DNA of 64,000 nt from Vibrio sp. MEBiC08052 (lineage in GTDB: Bacteria; Pseudomonadota; Gammaproteobacteria; Enterobacterales; Vibrionaceae). A program made the translations under genes and the position numbers. A model generated the notes under the pieces. It was not told where the DNA came from and searched no databases. It saw only the letters and a list, made by a program, of their open reading frames with translations. The stretch spans positions 847,799 to 911,798 of the forward strand of contig NZ_KQ947475.1 of the NCBI RefSeq assembly GCF_001506075.1, written 5' to 3'. Shown piece after piece: positions 25,721 through 48,380 of this stretch (position 1 is its first letter; each line of letters begins with the position of its first letter).

Positions 25721-26193
25721 TGAATAGCCACCGATTTTATAGACATGCTTCGGTTAGACTCGTTTCTGCCCCAAACCGTTTCAGAGCACGTCGTTTTGTC
25801 AATAGAACTAGCTAATGTGCAAAATATGCACATTGCTTATCAATCAACTACCGAGTATTCCTCGGCAGTTGAACTGTTGCAATGGTTGTTTGAGCAATGA
25901 GAAAGTTCAGTTGTTGCAGAATCAGCAACAACTTATATCTGCCCCAAAACGTGCTGACCCTAATAAAACCAACTTCACTGATCCTAATATTTGCATAACG
26001 AAAGCTAATGAGTAGGCAAGAATCAAGATCTGACCCCAGTATGTGCCTCGTGATATTTCAGTGGAGCTTAAAACACTGTGCAAATTTGTGCCTACCACAT
26101 CGCCCTTAGCCCATAATCTGTAGTTTCCAATATCCACCAGAATATCGTAAAATCATGAGATTATTCGTTTTATTGCATAATTTGGAGATGAGC

Positions 26194-28656
26194 ATGATCA
26201 AGTGCTTCCTATCACATAGCTCAAGAGATAAAGAATTTGTCCGATCTGTTGCTTCTGGGTTACGTAAAGAAACTAGAATTTTTGATGAGCAAACCTTCGA
26301 AAAAGGTATGTCTCCAGCGGAAGAAATTATCAATGGACTTGATGATACATCACTGTTTGTTTTGTTCCTTTCTGATTCAGCTCTAAATTCCGAATGGGTT
26401 AAGGAAGAAATTAGACTGGCTAAGACAAGAGTAGATGAAGGTAACATACAACGCATTTACCCTATCATTATTGATGATAATATTGATTACACTGACGAAA
26501 GAATTCCTCTGTGGATGAAAGATGGTTTCAACATCCAGCCTATCAAGAAAGCTAAAGTTGTAGTAAGAAAGATCAATGCTCGACTTCGGGAAATCGCATT
26601 TAATACTCACCCAACGTTAAAAGAAAGACAAAAAATTTATGTTGGTCGAAATGAGAAAACAACCAATGTAGAGCAACGCTTTGATGACTTTGACAAGCCA
26701 ACGCCAGTAGTATTTGTCGCATCAGGATTAAATCACATAGGTAGGAAGTCGTTCATCAAAAATGCTCTAACTAAATCATCTGTTATCAGAGAATCATATG
26801 ATTTCCCTATTATTCAAATGGAATCGACAGATAGTATTGAAGATTTCATTCTCAAGATTGATGACCTCGGTTTAGCTGATGTTGGCGAAATTTGGAACTT
26901 AATGACAACATCAATCAGCGACAAAGTCGATATTGCCGTAAGATTAATAGAAAGCATTGTCGAAGAAAAAGAACGCATTTTAATTGAAGATAAAGGGGCT
27001 ATAATCCAACCAGGCAGTTCCGTTGTTAGTTGGTTTGTTGATATTGTTGACCGTATTAAACCTTCAGAACATCTCACATTCTGTATTGCTTCACAGTTCA
27101 GAGGTAATAAATCTTTTTCAAATAAAAATCCAGAATACTATTTTGAAGAAATACCAGAACTCAATATTCACGAGCGCCGTGGCCTTTTAAAGCGGTATTC
27201 TGAATTCAAAGGATTGGAGTTAAATCGTGAGGATCTCAAGTTTATCTCTGATCTATTGTCAGGTTATCCCGAGCAGGTATTATTTGCTGTTGACAGTATT
27301 TTTGATACAAGCCTTTTCGCAGTTAAGAAAGACCCTCACCTGATTAGAGAATATGCGGATGATAAAGCTAGAATTGTTGTGGAAAGCTTTGCTAAAGATG
27401 AGAAAAAACTGAGTTTTTTATACTTCTTAGCTAAATTCGAGTTTATAAGCTACGAATTTCTATTCTCACTTGTCAATGAAGATGAATTCTATCCAATAAC
27501 ACAAAGCTTCATTAACATGTCAGTTTGTGACCAGTTAGGTGTAAATAATGATTATATTAGAATCAACCAAGTCGTTCAAGAATACATATCTAGAAGCAGA
27601 TTTGGCACATCATCAGAGTATGATAGCATCCTAGATGAGCATATTAAAAAATTCATTTCTGAGTACTCAGATGACAACCGTGATTTATCTGAATATATTT
27701 TCTCAATACAAGAAGCTATAAAATCAGGTAAAGATATTGATAATCGCATTTTGGTACCATCGTACTTTGTGAAAACGATAAAAGCACTATATGAAAAAGG
27801 CGGAACGTCAAATTATAAAGAGGCGGTAAAGTTAGCTGATCGTGTGTTGGACAATTCTCGATATATGCATGAAAGTGTTATCGATCACATCTTATTTATG
27901 AAATGTCAGTCATTAGCTAGGTTGCATGATCAAGACTTCTTTGGTGCAGTTAGGAAAATAAAGGAACCTGAAAGTTCATTTCTTCACGGTTTCTATTTCA
28001 GAATTACTCGTCAAAGAAAGAGAGCTATTGAGAGCTACAAGCGAGTTTTAGAGATGCGGCCTAACGATCAAAGAGCTAAAGGTGAACTCGTTTTGTTGTA
28101 CTTACAGAATGACGAATACGAACTTGCCCTTGGCTTAGCCAAAAGTGTGTATGAGCGACAAAAGAACAACCCAATCAACGCTAACAATTATCTCAATTGC
28201 TTATTTTACAAAGATAAAAGTAATGTTGATCAAGAGGTTGTTGAGGAGATTATTGAGAAGCTTAAGTCTAACCCAGCGCAACGATCACAAGAAATATATT
28301 GTTCTGCTAAAGCAAAAGCACTTGCCAAGTTTGATAATAAAGTCGATGAGGCTTTCGAAGTTATCGAAAAAGGCATTCTTGACTTTCCTGAAATCAAGTA
28401 TCCCGTACTAACACTTTGTGATCTTTCTATCCAGTATAGAAAACTAGACAAGCTTGAATATGCAATAAGTATACTTGATCGAACAGATTCACCAAAATCA
28501 CAAACTTACAGTAGCTTTATTCGCTTTAAAGCTACTTATTTAGCGCTATCAAACAGACTAGACGAAGCTAATGCGCTCTGCCGAAAGGAATTACGCGAGT
28601 TAACCGCTCAAGAGCTTGAGCAATTATTTGAAATATTGGCTCAATATCAGAGATAG
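26194..28656 (+). CDS. TIR-domain STAND-like protein with C-terminal TPRs (probable antiphage effector)
   Basis: An 820-residue protein. N-terminal TIR domain (about 1-140): KCFLSHSSRDKEFVRSVASG, then GMSPAEEI (catalytic-Glu region expected near here) and SLFVLFLSDSALNSEWVKEE. Then a P-loop-like domain with a degenerate Walker A, ASGLNHIGRKSFIKN, as in TIR proteins of the STAND/NACHT kind. The last third contains TPR-like helices (SYKRVLEMRPNDQRAKGELV). Known relatives sense phage and deplete NAD+ through TIR, killing the infected cell. The ATG at 26194 has GGAG six bases upstream. It is monocistronic and AT-rich, like imported cargo. Confidence 0.8.
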   Translation: MIKCFLSHSSRDKEFVRSVASGLRKETRIFDEQTFEKGMSPAEEIINGLDDTSLFVLFLSDSALNSEWVKEEIRLAKTRVDEGNIQRIYPIIIDDNIDYTDERIPLWMKDGFNIQPIKKAKVVVRKINARLREIAFNTHPTLKERQKIYVGRNEKTTNVEQRFDDFDKPTPVVFVASGLNHIGRKSFIKNALTKSSVIRESYDFPIIQMESTDSIEDFILKIDDLGLADVGEIWNLMTTSISDKVDIAVRLIESIVEEKERILIEDKGAIIQPGSSVVSWFVDIVDRIKPSEHLTFCIASQFRGNKSFSNKNPEYYFEEIPELNIHERRGLLKRYSEFKGLELNREDLKFISDLLSGYPEQVLFAVDSIFDTSLFAVKKDPHLIREYADDKARIVVESFAKDEKKLSFLYFLAKFEFISYEFLFSLVNEDEFYPITQSFINMSVCDQLGVNNDYIRINQVVQEYISRSRFGTSSEYDSILDEHIKKFISEYSDDNRDLSEYIFSIQEAIKSGKDIDNRILVPSYFVKTIKALYEKGGTSNYKEAVKLADRVLDNSRYMHESVIDHILFMKCQSLARLHDQDFFGAVRKIKEPESSFLHGFYFRITRQRKRAIESYKRVLEMRPNDQRAKGELVLLYLQNDEYELALGLAKSVYERQKNNPINANNYLNCLFYKDKSNVDQEVVEEIIEKLKSNPAQRSQEIYCSAKAKALAKFDNKVDEAFEVIEKGILDFPEIKYPVLTLCDLSIQYRKLDKLEYAISILDRTDSPKSQTYSSFIRFKATYLALSNRLDEANALCRKELRELTAQELEQLFEILAQYQR

Positions 28657-28758: not shown

Positions 28759-28867
28759 CGAAAAACCAATTGCTCATAGTTATTTGCCAATTGCTAATTT
28801 AGTAAACTCACTGACTCATTTCTGTCCAAAAGTGAGTTGTGTGGTTTTTGGGAGTGCCTGCATCTGC

Positions 28868-29407
28868 CTACTTGTGATTCGTCACAATTAAGTGTTTGTT
28901 TCTGCCAACCCTCTTCAAATCTCGAATGGCAGTCTCTTTACTAGCAATCCGCAGAGGCCGATCTGAAGTTATGGTATTGCTGATAATGTCAATATCATCA
29001 CGTTTGGTATGCGTGAACTCGATAACGCCGTAGGAGGTTCTAAATTCCCCTTTACGCCCCGTTGTCATGATAGTAATTCGATCGGTCATCACCTGAGAAA
29101 TGACACTGTATTCTGAGAGTGCCGATTCTAGAGAGATGTAATTGTACTCTCCCCGTCGCAAGCATTTAGCAATATATTCAATAGTATAACCACTTCTATG
29201 ACGGCTGTACGAGAATACATAAACACCGTTACACGCTCGCTCTATTACTCCTGCTTTTACTAAACGTGGCAGGCTTTGTTGGAATGCTGTAAGTGAATCA
29301 TCAAAAAATAACCTTCTGAGATCACTCTTCCGATAAACATGTATGCCTTGTTTGTCAAACCTATGCAGGCGCTCTAATGCAGTCTTAATCTTCATCTCAA
29401 TGCTCAT
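28868..29407 (-). CDS. AbiEi-family antitoxin-like regulator, no toxin partner seen
   Basis: A 179-residue protein with an N-terminal winged helix (IHVYRKSDLRRLFFDDSLTA, VKAGVIERACNGVYVFSY) and the C-terminal AbiEi domain (YNYISLESALSEYSVISQVM, ITIMTTGRKGEF, RIASKETAIRDLKRVGRN). In type IV toxin-antitoxin loci this protein represses its operon and AbiEii, a nucleotidyltransferase, is the toxin encoded next to it. Here the downstream side holds the convergent TIR gene and no AbiEii gene, so it is an orphan. Palindromic repeats lie upstream at 29509-29880. Confidence 0.8.
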   Translation of the reverse strand: MSIEMKIKTALERLHRFDKQGIHVYRKSDLRRLFFDDSLTAFQQSLPRLVKAGVIERACNGVYVFSYSRHRSGYTIEYIAKCLRRGEYNYISLESALSEYSVISQVMTDRITIMTTGRKGEFRTSYGVIEFTHTKRDDIDIISNTITSDRPLRIASKETAIRDLKRVGRNKHLIVTNHK

Positions 29408-29508
29408 AAGTAGTCACAAAAAGTAAGTATGACATATATTTTTGTCCACTTGAGATTGAAGTTAAAGCATCGGTAGTCGCTGATACCCTAGTGATTCCTG
29501 ACTTATTT

Positions 29509-29880
29509 GTCCGAGCTAGGATCCTAACTCGGAACTTATGGGGATGATTCTGGTTGCTTTGAGGTGAGGAAATGGCAGCACTAATCGTCAGATGCGATGT
29601 TCATTCTCGGTTAGGATCCTAACTCGGAATTTATGGGGATGATTATGGTTGCTTTGAGGTGAGGAAATGGCAGCACTAATCGTCAGATACGATGTTCATT
29701 CTCGGTTAGGATCCTAACTTGGAATTTATAGTGATGGGCGTGGTTGCTATGAGGCTAGGGGAAATAGCAGTACTAATCGTAGCTAGAATCCGATGTTCTT
29801 TCTCGGTTAGGATCCTAACCGAGAATTCATGGTGATGAATATGTGGTTCTTTGAGGAGAGAAATCGCATCACTAATAGCC
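29509..29880. repeat. Four about 95-bp repeats, each with a GTTAGGATCCTAAC palindrome
   Basis: GGATCC centres are at 29519, 29614, 29709 and 29810 (spacing 95, 95, 101). The first three units are nearly identical over their whole length; the fourth has drifted. The last palindrome is perfect over 22 bp (CTCGGTTAGGATCCTAAC plus CGAG). The unit interior, including ATGGCAGCACTAATCGTCAG, is repeated as well, so these are not CRISPR repeat-spacers. They lie 100-470 bp upstream of the AbiEi-type gene. The stretch 29408-30088 holds no gene. Confidence 0.9.
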
Positions 29881-30088
29881 CAGAATCTGATCTTTTCATT
29901 TTTAGGTAGAAGTTTAACTAATTATTATTTTTCTAATTTAATAATTAAAAAACAAACGGTTTTTATTTAATAATTAAATGTTAATGTGATTTTTAAAATA
30001 GTGATTAAAGGTCCTTTACAAAGATAATATTACTTGATAAATATAATAGTCATTGACTTTATCTATATATATCAAAAGGGTTGTCGAT

Positions 30089-30376
30089 ATGTCTCAAGTT
30101 TTGGTTTATTCTAAACGTAATCGTGAAATGAGTTATCTATCTACAAAAGAAGAACGTGAAACTAAGTCGAATGGATTTCAAGTCGTTTATAACGACATTT
30201 CCGATGAAGAAGCATTGCGTAGAGCAAATTCTATTAATTTAGATGAAAAGAACAATGTTCCCCAAGTTCGTTTAAAAAGACAACCTATTAAGGAAGAGAA
30301 AGAATGCCGAGTGCCTGGTTTATATGGTTGTAACCGTTATAAGTCAAGAAGAAATGAGACATTCAACGTGTTCTAA
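30089..30376 (+). CDS. Small basic protein, 95 residues, unknown
   Basis: The ATG at 30089 has AAGGG upstream and opens MSQVLVYSKRNREMSYLSTK. The protein is rich in Lys, Arg and Glu, without membrane segments. It has two Cys near the end (CRVPGLYGC). It carries an internal GAACAATGTTC motif in its DNA that recurs in the following 3.5 kb. I do not recognise it. Confidence 0.5.
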   Translation: MSQVLVYSKRNREMSYLSTKEERETKSNGFQVVYNDISDEEALRRANSINLDEKNNVPQVRLKRQPIKEEKECRVPGLYGCNRYKSRRNETFNVF

Positions 30377-30401
30377 CGTTGTTCTTTTTTTGCACAACGT
30401 T
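30375..30401 (+). terminator. Hairpin after the small basic protein gene
   Basis: AACGTTGT (30375-30382) and ACAACGTT (30394-30401) form an 8-bp stem; the T run is in the loop rather than after the stem, so termination on the plus strand is uncertain. Confidence 0.45.
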
Positions 30402-30427
30402 AAAGCTTGTGAGCTTGTATAAGGCAA

Positions 30428-30556
30428 GTGATAAAAGCCTTAAAAATTCCGTCATTAAAGCAGGTGGCAAGAGAATTTGCCAAGATTGGCAATCAATGTG
30501 CCATTGCTGGCGTTGAAAGTACCAGTAGTGGCAGAAGAATTTTTGCAATAAATTAA
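30428..30556 (+). CDS. Possible 42-residue peptide gene
   Basis: A GTG at 30428 opens a 42-codon frame starting MIKALKIPSLKQVAREFAKI and ending in RRIFAIN. The residue make-up looks protein-like and helical, and AAGG lies three bases before the start. It is too short to assign and could be the end of a decayed gene. Confidence 0.35.
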   Translation: MIKALKIPSLKQVAREFAKIGNQCAIAGVESTSSGRRIFAIN

Positions 30557-30607
30557 GCTTGTTTCGGATTAACCTTCATTTTTTAAAAGGCCAACCTTAT
30601 ATTAGAA

Positions 30608-30632
30608 TTATAACTTTATAAAAGTTATAATA
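30608..30632. repeat. Palindrome upstream of the serine recombinase gene
   Basis: ATTATAACTTT and AAAGTTATAAT face each other around a short AT centre. It lies in the AT-rich gap 30557-30988, in which I see no gene, and may be a regulatory or recombination site. Confidence 0.5.
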
Positions 30633-30988
30633 GTTATATCATGAAAAATTGAATAAATAAAATTTAATTTTTCATGTTGGATTTTAATGTCAAGGTGTTT
30701 TTAAACTGAATTTGTTTTTAATTATATATAAATAACTTTAGAGTAATGATATTTGCCTATGCGTATTAATTTATTTACTCGATTTTTATTAAGGCAAAGG
30801 TGGTTTGCCAAAATTATTGACTTAACTAGTCAACTTTAGCGAGATGTAAACACCCCTGTAGTATCAACAAACATCCTTTTTCTGACACCAGAAGGGAGTG
30901 AGCTGTTTGCAGTCTCATAAAATAGGGTTTGGATTTTTATGATACCCAACTGATTGATGATACTAGTTGTGATACCAAAAAGGAGAGT

Positions 30989-31579
30989 ATGATGGGACGG
31001 ACATTCGCTTATTGTCGTGTATCGACTAGCGAGCAAACAGTTTCAAATCAGATTTTAGCCATTCGGAATGCTGGCTACGATATTCAGGAGCACCGAATTG
31101 TTCATGAGACGGTTTCGGGGAGTGTACCTGCAACTGAACGACGTGAGTTCAAAATGTTGATTGAGCATAAACTTGAACCAGGGGACAAACTGGTGGTACT
31201 CAAGCTTGATCGACTTGGAAGAGATAACATCGATGTTCAGCATACGATCAGTATGCTGTTAGAAAAAGGTGTTACGCCAATTTCTCTGGATCTGCCGACC
31301 GCTGATCTAAGCTCAGCGGAGGGACGATTGATGCTGCAAATGTTCTCAGCATTTGCTGAATTTGAGCGAAACCGAATTCGAGAGCGAACATTGGAAGGGC
31401 AGGCCAGAGCTAAATCTGAGGGTAAGCGGATTGGCCGACCAGAAGCTCTCAGTACAACTCAAAAAGTTCAAGAATGTAGGGTAAGAGGACTGAGTCAATC
31501 CAAAACAGCAAATGCTCTAGGCATTTCCGTCCCCACGGTCAAGCGCCATTGGAACAAGCGGCTAACTGAAAGTATTTAA
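30989..31579 (+). CDS. Serine recombinase, resolvase/invertase family
   Basis: A 196-residue small serine recombinase: RTFAYCRVSTSEQTVSNQ (nucleophile Ser in YCRVST), KLVVLKLDRLGRDN, LDLPTADLSSAEGRLMLQMF, AFAEFERNRIRERT and a C-terminal HTH (LSQSKTANALGISVPTVKRH). It resolves or inverts DNA at paired sites. GGAG just before the ATG at 30989 sets the start. Palindromic GAAC-N3-GTTC motifs follow directly downstream and again beyond the reverse transcriptase gene; they may be its crossover sites. Confidence 0.9.
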   Translation: MMGRTFAYCRVSTSEQTVSNQILAIRNAGYDIQEHRIVHETVSGSVPATERREFKMLIEHKLEPGDKLVVLKLDRLGRDNIDVQHTISMLLEKGVTPISLDLPTADLSSAEGRLMLQMFSAFAEFERNRIRERTLEGQARAKSEGKRIGRPEALSTTQKVQECRVRGLSQSKTANALGISVPTVKRHWNKRLTESI

Positions 31580-31583
31580 TGAA

Positions 31584-31794
31584 GAACAATGTTCCATGAT
31601 ACCGAGAGCTACCAGAAGTAGTTATTAGCTAAGAGGTTTAAACGATATTGTAGGAACCTTGTTCTCGCTTAGCTTATCGAATAATACCAAGTTCTCTCGC
31701 CGACATTCAGTAGAATGTCTTATCTTTCGCTAGCTTTGAATAAGCAGCTAATTGATACGTGATAATCATCTGCTCTTTACTCGGAACAATGTTC
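31584..31794. repeat. Cluster of GAAC-N3-GTTC palindromes, left of the reverse transcriptase
   Basis: GAACAATGTTC at 31584-31594 and 31784-31794 and GAACCTTGTTC at 31654-31664, plus a perfect hairpin GACATTC-AGTA-GAATGTC at 31703-31720. The stretch 31580-31890 has no gene. A matching cluster lies on the other side of the reverse transcriptase locus. Confidence 0.8.
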
Positions 31795-31890
31795 TTATGC
31801 TAATCTTGAAATAGTAAAGATTGGTTATTTGAATAATCAATAAAAAACAGAAGCATAAGAAACGTGTTCTAATTACTGGTATCCGTCTCG

Positions 31891-33201
31891 TTATTTGCTT
31901 ATTTCGTCTTGAAGTCGTTGCCATAGAGGCTTCAATTGTCTTTTGATACTTTTTGAGTTCATAATCTTGGCTGCTCGGTAGCCGTATGAGAGGAAGTTTC
32001 TTTTGCCTCTGTAAGAATACAGGCGATGGAGCTTTCTCTTGTAAAGCTGATCTTGTTCTGGTTCGTCTTTACTTTTACGTATTCTGTTCTCTTTCTCCAT
32101 CGTTTTCTTAGCCAATTTAACACCGCCTTTCATTTTTTCTGAGTAGCGAGCGAGGGCTGTAGAACGAAGAAAGATAGAATGTCCATCGAACAAGAAACCT
32201 AGATATTGAAGCGGCTTCTGTTTGCCAAATTCGTCAAATGAACAAAGTTGTCCATTTTGGAATTTAAAATCTCTGATTTCTGTTTTATCGCTGTTTATCT
32301 GCACCTTTAGTGCTGCTATTTTACTATTAGCGAGCTTCTCAACAGTATCTCGATACTCTGATGGAACAATAAACAGCATATCGTCACAATATCTAAAGTA
32401 CTTTCCTCCGATAGAGTCAACATAACTCTTCATGTGTTCATCAAATGAGAACATGTAAATGTTAGAAAGTAATGCGCTGATTGGAGAGCCTTGAGGGATG
32501 CCCATAGCACCATTTGGATTTGGTTTTATCAAACCAGAACCACGAACTTTTTCTCTGAATTCTATTGGGTTACAGACACGATTTCTTCCATTAGCCTTTG
32601 GGTTGTACTGAGATATCTCAAACACTTTGAAAAGCTCTTCTCGATCGACAGTCGAAAACTTGGTTAGTGATCGAAAAACGTTATAGTGATCTTTTGGTAG
32701 GCTGTTGACCTGAAGAAGCTTGCTCCATTCCTCTTTAAGGATTTTATGATCAAGAGTGTCAAAAAACTTTGAAAAATCTAGTGCTATAACCGAGCACTCT
32801 CCATTTTCACGTATGTAGTTAAACGCATCGTCAGCAAAATGAATATTACTTTTACCATCAAGTTTTCTGAACGCTAATACAGACTCATGCAACCCAAACT
32901 TTTCAACTTTATGTTCATATAGGCTTGATAGCTGACTAGCGTAGTAAGCATAAATGTGACTATCTATATGAGAAGAGTAGGCTACACCTCTTGGTTTGGG
33001 TTTACGGTAGAGCTTGCCTGTAGAGCGGTCTCTGTCGAGTTTGGTGAGCTGGAAACTGTAGGAGATAAAAGGGAAAAATGCGTGCCTGGCAACAGATGTT
33101 GCACTCGTTACGATCTTTTCTGCTTTGGTTCCAGATACTGGTACATCAAAGTGAAGGTAATTTCGTTTTGTATACCAGAGTGGAACGGACATCTTTTTCA
33201 T
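31891..33201 (-). CDS. Reverse transcriptase of a DRT2-type antiphage system
   Basis: A 436-residue single-domain reverse transcriptase with no extra nuclease or maturase domain. Motifs: VIALDFSKFFDTLDH (first catalytic Asp near 142), GAMGIPQGSPISALLSNIYM, FRYCDDMLFIVP (YCDD near 271-274, last two Asp) and PLQYLGFLFDGH, then a Lys-rich thumb-like end. It makes cDNA on the structured RNA encoded just upstream on the same strand. In DRT2 (UG2) systems the enzyme copies part of that RNA again and again into concatemers that, once double-stranded after phage infection, express a repetitive 'neo' protein that stops growth. I assign DRT2 from the template layout at 33325-33435 rather than from an alignment. 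ATG choice: 33201; 33192 is possible. Confidence 0.88.
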   Translation of the reverse strand: MKKMSVPLWYTKRNYLHFDVPVSGTKAEKIVTSATSVARHAFFPFISYSFQLTKLDRDRSTGKLYRKPKPRGVAYSSHIDSHIYAYYASQLSSLYEHKVEKFGLHESVLAFRKLDGKSNIHFADDAFNYIRENGECSVIALDFSKFFDTLDHKILKEEWSKLLQVNSLPKDHYNVFRSLTKFSTVDREELFKVFEISQYNPKANGRNRVCNPIEFREKVRGSGLIKPNPNGAMGIPQGSPISALLSNIYMFSFDEHMKSYVDSIGGKYFRYCDDMLFIVPSEYRDTVEKLANSKIAALKVQINSDKTEIRDFKFQNGQLCSFDEFGKQKPLQYLGFLFDGHSIFLRSTALARYSEKMKGGVKLAKKTMEKENRIRKSKDEPEQDQLYKRKLHRLYSYRGKRNFLSYGYRAAKIMNSKSIKRQLKPLWQRLQDEISK

Positions 33202-33224
33202 ACTTTGAGCGCACAAGTTCTAGC

Positions 33225-33470
33225 AAAACCCAAGAGGAGTGGACATGCGGCCTTTCCGTATATCCCCTTGGGCTTTAACTAACTGGCCTAACCAATCATC
33301 TGGCCCCGAAAGGCACTCGCCGCGATCTATTAGAAATGATGTATAATGTAATCTGCGATGGAGATTATATGATGATAATCGTACACCTCATGACAATGTT
33401 GTTGTCTTGGCTCAGCAAGCGCAACGGCATTGACAATCTGTCACAAACCTCCACGCCTTTCGCGTGAAGC
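33225..33470 (-). ncRNA. Template non-coding RNA of the DRT2-type reverse transcriptase
   Basis: The gene-free stretch upstream of the reverse transcriptase folds into many short hairpins in the RNA sense: CACGC/GCGTG at 33452-33466, TGACA/TGTCA at 33431-33443, GACAA/TTGTC at 33392-33406, GATTAT/ATAATC at 33363-33380, and a closing stem CCCAAG/CTTGGG (33229-33234 with 33267-33272, extended by GG/CC) directly before the gene. A promoter with TTGATT (33505-33500) and TATGCT (33482-33477), 17 bp apart, would start the RNA near 33470. Exact ends are estimates. Confidence 0.8.
33325..33435 (+). other. Predicted 111-nt rolling-circle cDNA repeat carrying a permuted 'neo' gene
   Basis: Read in the cDNA sense: TATAAT at 33342-33347 near the start, GGAG at 33360-33363, ATG ATG at 33369-33374, TTGACA at 33430-33435 at the end. 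ATCT occurs at 33325-33328 and again at 33436-33439, exactly 111 nt apart, so the enzyme can jump from template end back to its beginning. A head-to-tail joint puts 17 bp between TTGACA and TATAAT. The frame of the ATG is open all through the unit (no stop from 33303 to the TGA at 33465) while both other frames have stops at 33337 and 33344. As 111 is 3 x 37, the concatemer has no stop in this frame. The 37-residue unit is mostly hydrophobic and helical (MMIIVHLMTMLLSWLS). Confidence 0.8.
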
Positions 33471-33476
33471 TTTAAC

Positions 33477-33505
33477 AGCATATTGATTTTTATATATGCA
33501 ATCAA
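33477..33505 (-). promoter_or_regulatory. Sigma-70-like promoter of the DRT2 RNA
   Basis: On the minus strand TTGATT, a 17-bp spacer and TATGCT. The predicted start is near 33470, at the foot of the first hairpin of the RNA. Confidence 0.6.
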
Positions 33506-33627
33506 GCCTTTCTTGGTGTCTTATTCCTAATCACATGCTGCTTTATGTTTCTTGTGTGGTTAGACTTTCTCAGTCGCCTTTGCTTGAAAATGAGCTTGAA
33601 ATTTCCTATTCACTCTAATTTTCAAAA

Positions 33628-33713
33628 CAGAGAACAATGTTCTCTGAGTAACGAGTTGTTGTAACAGGGGATTGGTGAGCTGGCTATTGATACTGCGAGA
33701 ACATTGTTCTCGC
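33628..33713. repeat. Palindromic GAAC-N3-GTTC cluster, right of the DRT2 locus
   Basis: CAGAGAACAATGTTCTCTG (33628-33646) and GCGAGAACATTGTTCTCGC (33695-33713) have the same core as the cluster at 31584-31794. Sequence after the second (TTGTTCTCGCTTA, then TTATC) is also shared with that after 31654. Confidence 0.8.
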
Positions 33714-33754
33714 TTAAATTATCAAACCTAAAGATTGAGTATTTAATTAACAAA

Positions 33755-33792
33755 TAAAAAATGCTTTGAGTAGAACTATGTTCTACTCAAAG
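33755..33792 (-). terminator. Terminator of the hsdMS operon
   Basis: CTTTGAGTAGAAC and GTTCTACTCAAAG form a perfect 13-bp stem with a 3-nt loop, followed on the minus strand by CATTTTTTATTTG. It lies 22 bp after the stop of the PD-(D/E)xK gene, and its core again is GAAC-N3-GTTC. Confidence 0.85.
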
Positions 33793-33813
33793 ATTGGTGT
33801 TTGTGTAATCGAA

Positions 33814-34809
33814 TCAGTCTACTTTCTCTACAACCATGCCACTTTGCTCTGCAAAGTGAATCAATCGAGTGATATTGCTGAGGCTCCACTGGTTGGTGAT
33901 GGTTATCACCTCGTCGTTAGGCAGCGTAATCAGCGCGTCCTCATCGCTGTGGAAACGGCGAATTCTACCTTGAGGTATATCATCCGCTAGGATGGCAATT
34001 CGTCGTCTTACTGGCTCGTTAAATGCGTTGAGTATATCATTCAAGCTTTGTGGTTGATGCTTCTCGATCCAGTCCGTGACTAACGCGAGCGCGAGGTGAC
34101 GCTTTTTATAGGTATGACCGTTATAGCGGTACTCCGAGTAATCTTTTTCGCCTTTTTGAACGCTTGTGCGCTGCTCGGCACGCTTCTCGCGGAACTTTAC
34201 CTGGTACTCTTCCACCTCGGGTACAGGGATGATCTGTTCAGCATTGATCAGTACATCTTCTTTGTAGCGGTAGGGCGTGAGGCGCACACAACTGATATCG
34301 ATGCCTTTGTCACGCAACCACAAGACCGAAGTGGTGAGTTCTTTACCGAAGTCTGCTGAGGCTAAAACGATTCGAACATCGTTACCAAAGTCATCCAAGC
34401 TGTTTTCATCAAGATCAACAAACTCCAGAATGGCTTCGCGGGCCTCAATCTCTAGACCTTCTTTCTTCAAGTACTGGGCATAGTAGTCACACGCTTTATC
34501 GAACGTCATGGTAGAGATCATCGCGGCATAGCGTAGAGCTTGCAGTTCCATATGCGCACCGATTTCATCCCGCTTAAGCTCGATGACCACTAAGTTGGCA
34601 TTCTTGTCGATGGCTAACAGGTCGATACGGCGACGGCTGTCTTCCCAGTCTGAAAACTCTTCTGATATCACCAAACAATCAGGAGCGATGGCATCAATAC
34701 AGCCTTTCAGCGCTTCTTGTAAATCGTGTCGCTCTTGCAGCCCTTCGGCTGCAAAAGTGGTCGGTGTCAGTGCGGTGAGGTTTTTATTGGAGATATTGTA
34801 CAGGCTCAT
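33814..34809 (-). CDS. PD-(D/E)xK nuclease-like protein (DUF91/NucS-like), third gene of hsdMS operon
   Basis: A 331-residue protein whose N-terminal half has a restriction-like nuclease core: RRRIDLLAIDKNANLVVIEL (Asp in RIDLL, then E-x-K in VIELKRD). The C-terminal part is a basic region without known motif. The start lies 2 bp after the stop of hsdS and the three genes end at one terminator, so it is cotranslated with the type I modification genes. It may be an added nuclease for the same sites or a separate defence gene; its role is inference. Confidence 0.75.
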   Translation of the reverse strand: MSLYNISNKNLTALTPTTFAAEGLQERHDLQEALKGCIDAIAPDCLVISEEFSDWEDSRRRIDLLAIDKNANLVVIELKRDEIGAHMELQALRYAAMISTMTFDKACDYYAQYLKKEGLEIEAREAILEFVDLDENSLDDFGNDVRIVLASADFGKELTTSVLWLRDKGIDISCVRLTPYRYKEDVLINAEQIIPVPEVEEYQVKFREKRAEQRTSVQKGEKDYSEYRYNGHTYKKRHLALALVTDWIEKHQPQSLNDILNAFNEPVRRRIAILADDIPQGRIRRFHSDEDALITLPNDEVITITNQWSLSNITRLIHFAEQSGMVVEKVD

Positions 34810-34811
34810 GA

Positions 34812-36584
34812 CTACACCGCCTGTTTAACAATAGTATCTGTAAGTTGTAATTGGGTTGATTTGGACTCTTTCAATCGCACTTTTAGCTGGTTGCAAATGG
34901 AGAGTAATTTATCGACTTTGTTGATAATGCGCAGCTGCTCCTTGATGGGAGGTAATACAGTAATAAGAGAACTTATATGGGTCTGGTTGACAGTTTTTTG
35001 TCCAGCAGTGCTAATAAATAAATCGGCAATTTTTTCTCGTATAATTGATGAAGACCCTAATAGTGACAAAAATGAAGGCATATAACACTCTACTGGAAAC
35101 CTCATTCTTATGAAGTGATCGCAGTAAATTGCATCATAGTCCTCATGACATGTCACAAATCTTCCCACGATATCAGCACTTCCGTTTACACGAATTATTA
35201 ACACATCCCCTTCTTGTAATGAGTAACGCTCGATGGATTTCCGCTCGATAACAATACTTCGAGTATCATCCAGAGAAATCTGCCAATCTTTAATATCGGC
35301 TAATCTCAATACTACGATTTCATTACCTTCTTTGTCTCCTCGGCTTGACGCTCCATTTTGAAATTGAGGCAGTAGCTCGCCAAGGCGACAAATCTCCCAC
35401 CCACTCGGCAGTTCAAACGGCTTTTCATCTTCAGAAATCGGTGGCAGCGCTTTTTGCTTCTTGATTTTCTTATCTTTGACTAACTGCGCTTTTTCTTCCG
35501 CTATTCTTTTCAGTAACTCAGCCGCTGGCTCGTCGCTTGGGTCTTGTGGAACTAGTTTACCCATCACCGCCAGTTGTAGGATGGTTTGTTTAAGCTGGTC
35601 GATACTCTCTTCGGTGGTGAATAAGGTATCGAAATGCTCACTGATTCGCGCCCAGTTTTGCATTAACTCGTCAGCATCGGCAGAGTTGGTGAGTGTGTCC
35701 AACAGAGTTGTTACCAGCATTTGATGCGCTTCGATACTGGTTTCGGTTTGTTGCTCTAGCTGGTCGCAGAGCGCCATTAGCTCATCGACTTTGGCGACGA
35801 TACGATGTTGTTCTGCAATTGGGGGGATTGGGAATTCAAACATTTCGAGAACTTTTTTGCTTAACCCTTCAATTGCCATCCCCACCTGTCTACCCCAGAC
35901 TAGCTGCTGTACCATAGGAGACAAAATGCCCAAATGAATAAATTGGTTCATTTGAGACTCGATCAATCGAATGATTGTAACGTGTTGACTTACGTTTGCT
36001 TCCACAAGATTTGAAGGGAATATGGTTGATCGTCCCAGCGATGCACCAGTGATGTTTAAAAGAACATCCCCTGGCAACACCTTAGTGTTTTCCATTTTTT
36101 GATGGATTTCGTCAGAGATATAAGCAATATCGTCGAGCTTTATACCTTCATTTCTCACATTCTGTGAGCGTAAGAATGGGATGCCTTCAGAGGTATAAGC
36201 ATTTTTGCCTCCTCTTGGAGTACTTCCAGACCCTAATTTAGAAGTTAACTCTCCCAGTCTAACGACTGCCCAGCCGCTCGGTAGGTCTATCGGTAACTCA
36301 TCTTCGTTGATTGGCGGTAAAACCTTTGTGCGGGGGATAAGTTTATCCTTTACCAATCGTTTTTTTTCTTCAGTAATACGCTCAAGCAACAATGAAGCTG
36401 GCTCATCATTAGGATCTTGAGGAACAAGCTTGCCTCGCACAGCTAACTCCAGAATTAGCTCACGCAGCTTCTTAACACCGTAAAGCTCCAGTTTCTTGCT
36501 GCTACCGCGACCAGAGGTCGATTTGGTCTTTACTGCGGAAGTCCAAATATCAATATGCTCGGTAATCAGGTTTTCTACAGCCAT
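34812..36584 (-). CDS. hsdS: Type I restriction-modification specificity subunit HsdS
   Basis: A 590-residue HsdS with two target recognition domains, each in the usual frame: first LPSGWAVVRLGELTSKLGSG and later LPSGWEICRLGELLPQFQNG, each followed by a conserved helix (PPIAEQHRIVAKVDELMALC, PPIKEQLRIINKVDKLLSIC). An N-terminal extension of about 85 residues repeats a conserved block seen again mid-protein (LVPQDPNDEPASLLLERI versus LVPQDPSDEPAAELLKRI). It selects the bipartite DNA site. Its ATG overlaps the stop of hsdM. Confidence 0.93.
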   Translation of the reverse strand: MAVENLITEHIDIWTSAVKTKSTSGRGSSKKLELYGVKKLRELILELAVRGKLVPQDPNDEPASLLLERITEEKKRLVKDKLIPRTKVLPPINEDELPIDLPSGWAVVRLGELTSKLGSGSTPRGGKNAYTSEGIPFLRSQNVRNEGIKLDDIAYISDEIHQKMENTKVLPGDVLLNITGASLGRSTIFPSNLVEANVSQHVTIIRLIESQMNQFIHLGILSPMVQQLVWGRQVGMAIEGLSKKVLEMFEFPIPPIAEQHRIVAKVDELMALCDQLEQQTETSIEAHQMLVTTLLDTLTNSADADELMQNWARISEHFDTLFTTEESIDQLKQTILQLAVMGKLVPQDPSDEPAAELLKRIAEEKAQLVKDKKIKKQKALPPISEDEKPFELPSGWEICRLGELLPQFQNGASSRGDKEGNEIVVLRLADIKDWQISLDDTRSIVIERKSIERYSLQEGDVLIIRVNGSADIVGRFVTCHEDYDAIYCDHFIRMRFPVECYMPSFLSLLGSSSIIREKIADLFISTAGQKTVNQTHISSLITVLPPIKEQLRIINKVDKLLSICNQLKVRLKESKSTQLQLTDTIVKQAV

Positions 36585-48014: not shown

Positions 48015-48033
48015 TGGTGGAGCTGGCGGGAGT
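48015..48033. other. ssrA: Right attachment site of the island (3' end of ssrA)
   Basis: TGGTGGAGCTGGCGGGAGT, the complement of the tmRNA acceptor end including CCA. It recurs with one base missing at 20308-20325. Integration keeps ssrA functional. ssrA is a known target for Vibrio islands. Confidence 0.85.
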
Positions 48034-48380
48034 TGAACCCGCGTCCGAAAATCATTCATCTTTGGTACTACATGCTTAGTCGATCTTTAATTTCACTACC
48101 ACCTGCGAACCGACACGCGAATGAATAGCTAACCTGAATTATCTCTTACGCTTCATCCCTCAGGTGGGGGAATCCACGCCAGCTTGTTTTGGTTTGACCA
48201 TCTGAACTCCCCGTCCTACAAGCAGAGGCTAGGGCAGATGGGCTCTCAGCAGGTTATTAAGCTGCTAGTGCGTAGTTTTCGTCGTTTGCGACTATTTTTT
48301 TGCGGTTTGTTAACGAGGCCTACCGCACCTCGGCATGCACCTCAGACTGCAAAATTCCCGTCGAATCCTGAATCAGCCCC
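48015..48380 (-). ncRNA. ssrA: tmRNA
   Basis: The 366-nt transfer-messenger RNA. The 5' end begins GGGGCTGATTCAGGATTCGA on the minus strand and the 3' end has the T-loop GGGTTCAACTCCCGCC before CCA. The tag frame at 48289-48257 codes ANDENYALAA and then TAA TAA. With SmpB, encoded next door, it rescues stalled ribosomes and marks the product for ClpXP. Confidence 0.97.

Follow-up and report, generated by a model that had tools for sequence, protein, structure and literature searches.

A DRT2 locus of Vibrio sp. MEBiC08052 with a 111-nt template, a promoter split across the predicted repeat joint and a putative wobble-primed template jump

The 64,000-nt stretch of Vibrio sp. MEBiC08052 DNA analysed here (the window) carries the gene of a DRT2 reverse transcriptase (RT) and, upstream of it, a non-coding RNA (ncRNA) with a 111-nt template (33331-33441), whose predicted head-to-tail copying would very probably create a promoter across each joint and a stop-free repeat gene of 37 codons, neo, likely by means of a jump primed with one G-U wobble. 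The DRT2 mechanism, 111-nt units and the neo signature are already published, according to the parts of PMC12039810 and PMC11100668 considered here. The elements of the unit are the following:

33331..33441, + strand: cDNA-sense repeat unit, 111 nt, 37 codons, placed according to the published DRT2 register (PMC12039810, section 7); its template is the ncRNA, on the - strand
33430..33435, + strand: -35 element TTGACA, before the joint, read from the sequence
33342..33347, + strand: -10 element TATAAT, after the joint, read from the sequence
33360..33374, + strand: GGAG, resembling a ribosome site, and the ATG ATG start codons of neo
33439..33441, + strand: cDNA copy of ACA-1 (TGT) at the unit end; the RNA reads ACA
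33328..33330, + strand: place of ACA-2, here TAT (RNA AUA), one base off ACA-1; the RT-12 consensus has ACA
33333..33337, + strand: predicted 5-nt DNA primer sequence GAAAT, placed by position from the Klebsiella GATAT (PMC12039810, section 9)

Re-reading of the sequence bears out the positions given in the first-pass annotation for the two hexamers, for GGAG (33360-33363) and ATG ATG (33369-33374), and for ATCT, which stands at 33325 and again at 33436 with a spacing of 111. TTGACA and TATAAT occur in reversed order along the + strand and come to lie 17 bp apart after a 111-nt head-to-tail repeat; copies joined in the register of that annotation indeed give TTGACA-17-TATAAT with 12 of 12 hexamer matches. 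The ATG frame of the + strand is, as had also been claimed, stop-free over the 37 codons of each turn, and both other + frames contain stops. The two ATG codons of neo are alternatives, relatives retaining either one. A stop-free circle alone is weak evidence, because 756 of 5000 dinucleotide shuffles of the unit, with the 111-mer read as a circle, were also open in at least one + frame. A perfect split promoter (12 of 12, 17-bp spacing) appeared in one of 3000 shuffles of the 510-nt region, searched over a range of places and lengths, and that shuffle was open as well.

The 111-nt repeat proposed in the first-pass annotation is the same circle as the one retained here; its joint, from 33435 to 33325, has to be moved and probably runs from 33441 to 33331. 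In the 120-nt Klebsiella unit, as described in the part of PMC12039810 dealing with it, TATAAT lies 12 nt from the 5' end and TTGACA 12 nt from the 3' end with 91 bp between them, and in published DRT2 units 11 nt precede TATAAT and 6 nt follow TTGACA (11 + 6 + 91 + 12 = 120). Applying this layout gives 33331-33441 as the canonical unit, shifted by six bases downstream from the earlier one. The two registers differ at a single base, G 33440 or A 33329, and the difference is silent (CTG/CTA, both Leu). The ATCT microhomology, which had been taken as the jump site, half-noticed a departure from the ACA rule: the second ACA (ACA-2, the re-priming triplet) reads AUA at this locus, so that its identity to ACA-1, a feature of the characterised DRT2 members, is absent.

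This departure is shared by a clade. In a tree of 80 RT proteins, drawn from part of the loci, TAT is found at the ACA-2 site in all eight rows of one branch (support 100/100), and TGT/TAT ends in all seven rows of the next branch (95/85); Moritella, with TAT at both ends, falls outside these seven. Named members of the AUA branch are from Vibrio, Photobacterium (one on a plasmid typed as conjugative), Proteus and Moritella, and the mismatch spans relatives from V. hannami (RT 93%) to Proteus (RT 72%). Between V. hannami and the present locus the unit differs by two bases, both in third positions and without residue change. Seven of the eight clade loci thus keep ACA-1, and at these the jump would likely need one dG-rU wobble; either joint letter gives Leu-Leu in all seven. 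No AUA or GCA at ACA-2 was found in the open-licence literature, although supplementary figures may already show such variants.

By analogy with the Klebsiella system, the ncRNA would bind the RT, a short DNA primer (GAAAT by position) would be made on the 3' end of the ncRNA, and phage infection would start cDNA synthesis. The nascent 3' end ...ATCTGT would then leave ACAGAU and re-anneal to AUAGAU with five Watson-Crick pairs and one dG-rU wobble. We propose that the G copied from ACA-1 would be kept at the joint, which would read CTG-TTA; with either letter the residues would be Leu-Leu. Second-strand synthesis and transcription would, again as in Klebsiella, lead to a repetitive, growth-arresting protein. 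Concatemeric cDNA, the phage trigger and growth arrest are thus carried over to this locus from the Klebsiella system and would apply here to the extent that the two work alike.

Another way to make the same circle is an earlier jump, at ATCT itself (33436-33439 to 33325-33328), in which the last two bases of ACA-1 would remain uncopied and the joint would carry A. It draws on the fact that ATCT is identical at both ends in six of the eight clade members (this locus, L042, L043, L205, L008 and L032), whereas the Proteus (ATCTGT/TACTAT) and Moritella (TTCTAT/ATATAT) loci have no ATCT match and yet have open units that are multiples of 3 (123 and 111 nt), and in the wider family the end match sits at the last three bases. 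Moreover, in DRT10, altering the outer alignment segment had no effect on the sequence of the repeats, according to the part of PMC12632851 considered here, a result that speaks against the earlier jump and fits wobble re-priming with the G kept; general tolerance of mismatches is not favoured, since the same source reports that mutating either segment alone ends repeat addition. We regard the jump at ATCT as unlikely. It is far less probable still that this is a decaying DRT2, in which the loss of ACA-2 broke repeat synthesis and left the open frame as a relic: the Klebsiella system does need homology between the ACA motifs (PMC11100668, section 7), but AUA is kept in eight loci, Vibrio, Photobacterium, Proteus and Moritella among those named, with open units and RTs without internal stops, the RT frame here is intact, and seven loci retain non-identical triplets together with the frame. 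The likely reading is re-priming at AUA through one wobble.

The unit was compared across the family in the regions upstream of the RT, the sources including the best 80 of 396 and the best 80 of 200 loci; L130-L201 (72 of the best 80; partial matches, E 1e-9 or weaker) and L002 and L009-L031 (below the Drt2 cut-off) were left out, and plasmid and phage matches amounted to 32 plasmid and 3 phage records, with three plasmid records included. The 109 regions gave 101 loci after named and identical duplicates had been dropped. When the hexamer pair was picked by promoter score alone (at least 11 of 12 matches, single best pair), 57 of the 101 loci yielded a unit, the other 44 having no single best pair (38 under 11 of 12, six ties). 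These 57 include four locus pairs with identical units. Of the 57, 49 have a unit length divisible by 3 and 48 have an open unit; relative to the promoter the open frame is the same one in all 48, and neither of the remaining frames is open in any unit. The nine non-open units are those of L085, L087, L088, L091, L033, L059, L051, L057 and L067, and for L051 and L067 an alternative register is open. With promoter and end match combined (n = 66), 60 units are multiples of 3 and 58 are open in the common frame, against 14.3 expected from shuffled interiors. The registers of L033 (145 nt), L037 (134 nt) and L104 (126 nt) are uncertain and their units provisional. In L034, L104 (Psychrobacter) and L033 (Nitratidesulfovibrio plasmid) TTGACA is present with register and frame off the common rule, and other jump rules are possible there.

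The same loci show how the end triplets vary. TGT/TAT ends occur in 7 of the 66 units, and a change of TGT to TGC (RNA GCA), which leaves a dT-rG wobble, in 14, 11 of them from Pseudomonas. The triplets of the 48 open promoter-only units are identical in 27, differ by exactly one wobble in 16 and are mismatched in five; four of the true mismatches are distant loci (L090, L095, L105, L119) and the fifth, L061, has another register that matches. A bias toward wobble is suggestive only, because each of the two wobbles results from a transition, a frequent type of change. For the pair one base outward and for hydropathy, eight Pseudomonas loci were added and L104 was left out; recounted figures are used, as several loci repeat one another (L091 = L219; L073 = L111 = L221 = L223; L077 = L078 = L222; L092 = L226). 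Among distinct loci without triplet mismatch, the fourth-base pair is present at 20 of 22 wobble sites vs 9 of 44 identical sites (27 of 29 vs 9 of 44 with repeated loci), a comparison in which the loci are not independent, the wobble set comes mostly from two clades, and the choice of loci without mismatch biases the wobble count. The fourth pair is gone in Moritella, where ACA-1 has also become AUA. At the wobble joints, among which L104 is a doubtful unit, the residues are unchanged with either letter set in 22 of 22, and are Leu-Leu in 20.

Some relatives have closed frames. Six Pseudomonas loci, L085, L087, L088, L091, L219 (125 nt) and L220 (131 nt), have unit lengths of 2 modulo 3 and represent five distinct units, L091 and L219 being identical in the compared stretch. 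From the start codon the frame runs on past the joint as far as a TGA that overlaps the next start (ATGA), the same overlap being found in the 125-nt and 131-nt units, and the predicted peptide has 42 or 44 residues, a number that, tripled, exceeds the unit length by one. In the remaining 13 Pseudomonas loci, some of which repeat one another, the units are 132 nt long and have no stop; in L059 (Thiotrichales, 108 nt) TAA immediately precedes ATG. From their frames, these closed-neo loci are predicted to give discrete peptides of 35-44 residues rather than an endless protein and, if copying of their templates follows that of the other units, a series of separate small genes that may be coupled. 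Since defence in Klebsiella is lost when a stop is placed close to the end of the frame (PMC11100668, section 8), a closed neo would imply a different effector logic, and it questions the need for an endless protein in every case. The published search for Neo required the absence of in-frame stops (PMC11100668, section 10), and such a finder would therefore pass over these loci. Nothing on closed neo was found in print in the open-licence literature, and no further Pseudomonas relatives came to light in a search of viral contigs and plasmids.

Taken together, a broader reading can be advanced tentatively, as plausible and slightly on the doubtful side: the jump sites may be read by pairing and not by identity, the re-priming triplet drifting between ACA, AUA and GCA, all of which can pair with the TGT end of the cDNA, a lost Watson-Crick pair being regained one base outward and the seam consisting mostly of Leu codons, where the change is silent; in the present lineage of Vibrionaceae, Proteus and Moritella the drift would be fixed; the same coding logic may elsewhere have given the closed-neo DRT2s with discrete peptides. 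Because the RT passes the curated model and the combination of triplets is not constant within the family, the present locus is filed in DRT2 despite its AUA; judged from the sequences compared, triplet identity would then be a property of the characterised members and not of the RT family.

The enzyme itself is encoded on the strand opposite to the unit:

31891..33201, - strand: DRT2 reverse transcriptase gene, 436 residues, starting at ATG 33201 (the list of open reading frames starts it at TTG 33216)

The DRT2-type assignment of the first-pass annotation is well supported, Drt2 being the best family in both NCBIfam and PADLOC by a wide margin. The RT scores 577 bits against NCBIfam NF041746 (Drt2; cut-off 390) and 663 bits against PADLOC Drt2, the best non-DRT2 family reaching 78 bits, and it matches PDB chains named Drt2 (9c0i and others) with an E value of 7.2e-144. 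YCDD is invariant in 10 aligned DRT2 RTs. The enzyme was also checked for firm grouping with another RT family, and stays with Drt2. The idea that it belongs to the retron or group II intron RTs and lies beside a coincidental 111-nt periodicity can practically be dismissed, for the weak scores of the RT core with the group II and retron models (74.3 and 58.1 bits) are far from their cut-offs of 300 and 235, whereas the Drt2 model exceeds its own by 187 bits in agreement with the PADLOC and PDB matches, and the frame result across the family speaks against coincidence. The nearest named RT among the best 80 of 396 loci is that of V. hannami, and Drt2 scores above the cut-off in 7 of 227 genomes of the genus. 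A single-RT scan of viral contigs found no relative, and distant blastn of E. coli genomes gave no match.

The ncRNA lies upstream of the RT with handle, template and scaffold, the arrangement expected of DRT2:

33220..33469, - strand: predicted non-coding RNA of about 250 nt, with approximate ends placed from the RT-12 match, the limits of similarity and covarying hairpins
33220..33332, - strand: 3' scaffold of the ncRNA (Rfam RF03016, RT-12; 72 bits, gathering threshold 44.2)
33449..33469, - strand: 5' handle hairpin, SL1-like, from covariation
33443..33447, - strand: weak candidate for the left strand of the template-base stem SL2, pairing with 33326-33330
33477..33505, - strand: promoter-like hexamers TTGATT-17-TATGCT, identified by eye, for the ncRNA (and RT)

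For the helices, the RNA was aligned with seven relatives (8 sequences) and 33 named pairs were assessed, 11 of which show two-sided changes; the helices flank the template on both sides. Of the cells, 96.2% are paired vs 37-57% with the partner shifted by one to three columns, and the covariation score is above all of 500 shuffles; one control points the opposite way, further pair types numbering 20, below the shuffled mean of 23.0. In the SL1-like handle three of eight pairs have changed on both sides, with 96.9% of cells paired in the 8 sequences. SL2, with up to five pairs and a one-base bulge, has 82.5% of cells paired and no two-sided change in the same sequences; it is kept in part, a G-U pair being broken in Moritella. 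TTGATT-17-TATGCT is not in the list given by a consensus promoter scan; as a promoter it would start the RNA near 33470. Similarity at the DNA level (75-76%) to two more distant relatives starts at 31904 and ends at 33470 for G028 and at 33495 for a Photobacterium damselae plasmid; being confined to these limits, it delimits an RT-plus-ncRNA module.

Constraint on the Neo product was also considered. Among the seven 111-nt members of the AUA clade, differences by codon position number 163, 186 and 222; the third-position excess is weak, as is the constraint at the protein level. Mean hydropathy is positive in all 70 units examined, but the densest hydrophobic run beats 95% of residue shuffles in just one of these 70, and the run of Neo at the present locus is matched by 16.5% of shuffles of its own residues. 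Because the hydrophobic runs are no denser than composition predicts, no membrane claim is made for Neo.

The neighbours of the DRT2 module are a type I restriction system, TIR-NLR-like and AbiEi-like genes, a PDC-S11 candidate defence gene and a serine recombinase. The TIR domain protein (26155-28656; PADLOC TIR-NLR, 572 bits) is a second candidate phage-defence gene, and the AbiEi antitoxin-like gene (28868-29407) is above its NCBIfam cut-off. A 6-kb block (28794-34853) with the AbiEi-like gene, the recombinase, DRT2 and the PDC-S11 gene shares 91% identity with V. hannami. Between further matching blocks, the type I specificity gene differs in parts from that of V. hannami, and exchange of target recognition is possible there. 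At 29517-29891, several overlapping matches to one stretch of the V. hannami locus (L228; 76-79%) point to a short repeated sequence in the interval from the AbiEi-like gene to the recombinase. The window also contains a tmRNA gene (48015-48380). Such genes are frequent integration sites for islands, and the tmRNA rescue system could be engaged by a stop-free mRNA. Seven palindromes of the form GAAC-NNN-GTTC (GAACNNNGTTC) are found in the 3.5 kb surrounding the recombinase and the module:

30250, 31584, 31654, 31784, 33632, 33699 and 33773: GAAC-NNN-GTTC palindromes

Seven recur in V. hannami and none is present in the L229 and L214 stretches compared. Genome-wide they number 58 vs 63 in a reversed control, so that there is no excess and the clustering is local; a stricter pattern has eight one-mismatch places, one of them here. 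No mechanism for this local clustering was found, and that they are sites of the recombinase or of a regulator is a guess.

Compared with known systems, the locus is closest to the Klebsiella pneumoniae DRT2, with which it shares the RT family, the ncRNA upstream of the RT with its template between handle and scaffold, the TTGACA/TATAAT split giving 17 bp once joined, a ribosome site and start after the -10 element, and a stop-free frame in a unit that is a multiple of 3. It differs from it in the unit (111 nt here, 120 nt there), in the ncRNA (probably about 250 vs 280 nt), in the predicted primer (GAAAT vs GATAT) and in ACA-2, which is AUA here, the ends matching with a wobble. The template is the least conserved part of the RNA according to the part of PMC12039810 considered here. 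The scaffold (33332-33220) matches Rfam RF03016 (RT-12), whose consensus starts UAACA whereas the RNA here has UAAUA. DRT10 and telomerase likewise make RNA-templated repeats by realigning their product at the second of two copies of a short segment, but they belong to other RT families and their product is tandem-repeat DNA and not an assembled gene, as far as the part of PMC12632851 considered here describes them. The published DRT2 model rests on identical ACA triplets; here eight loci keep frame and promoter, seven of them with non-identical triplets. The AUA clade thus separates identity from pairing as the rule of the jump, with a silent joint letter that is readable by sequencing, and offers a natural variant of the step on which DRT2 function depends.
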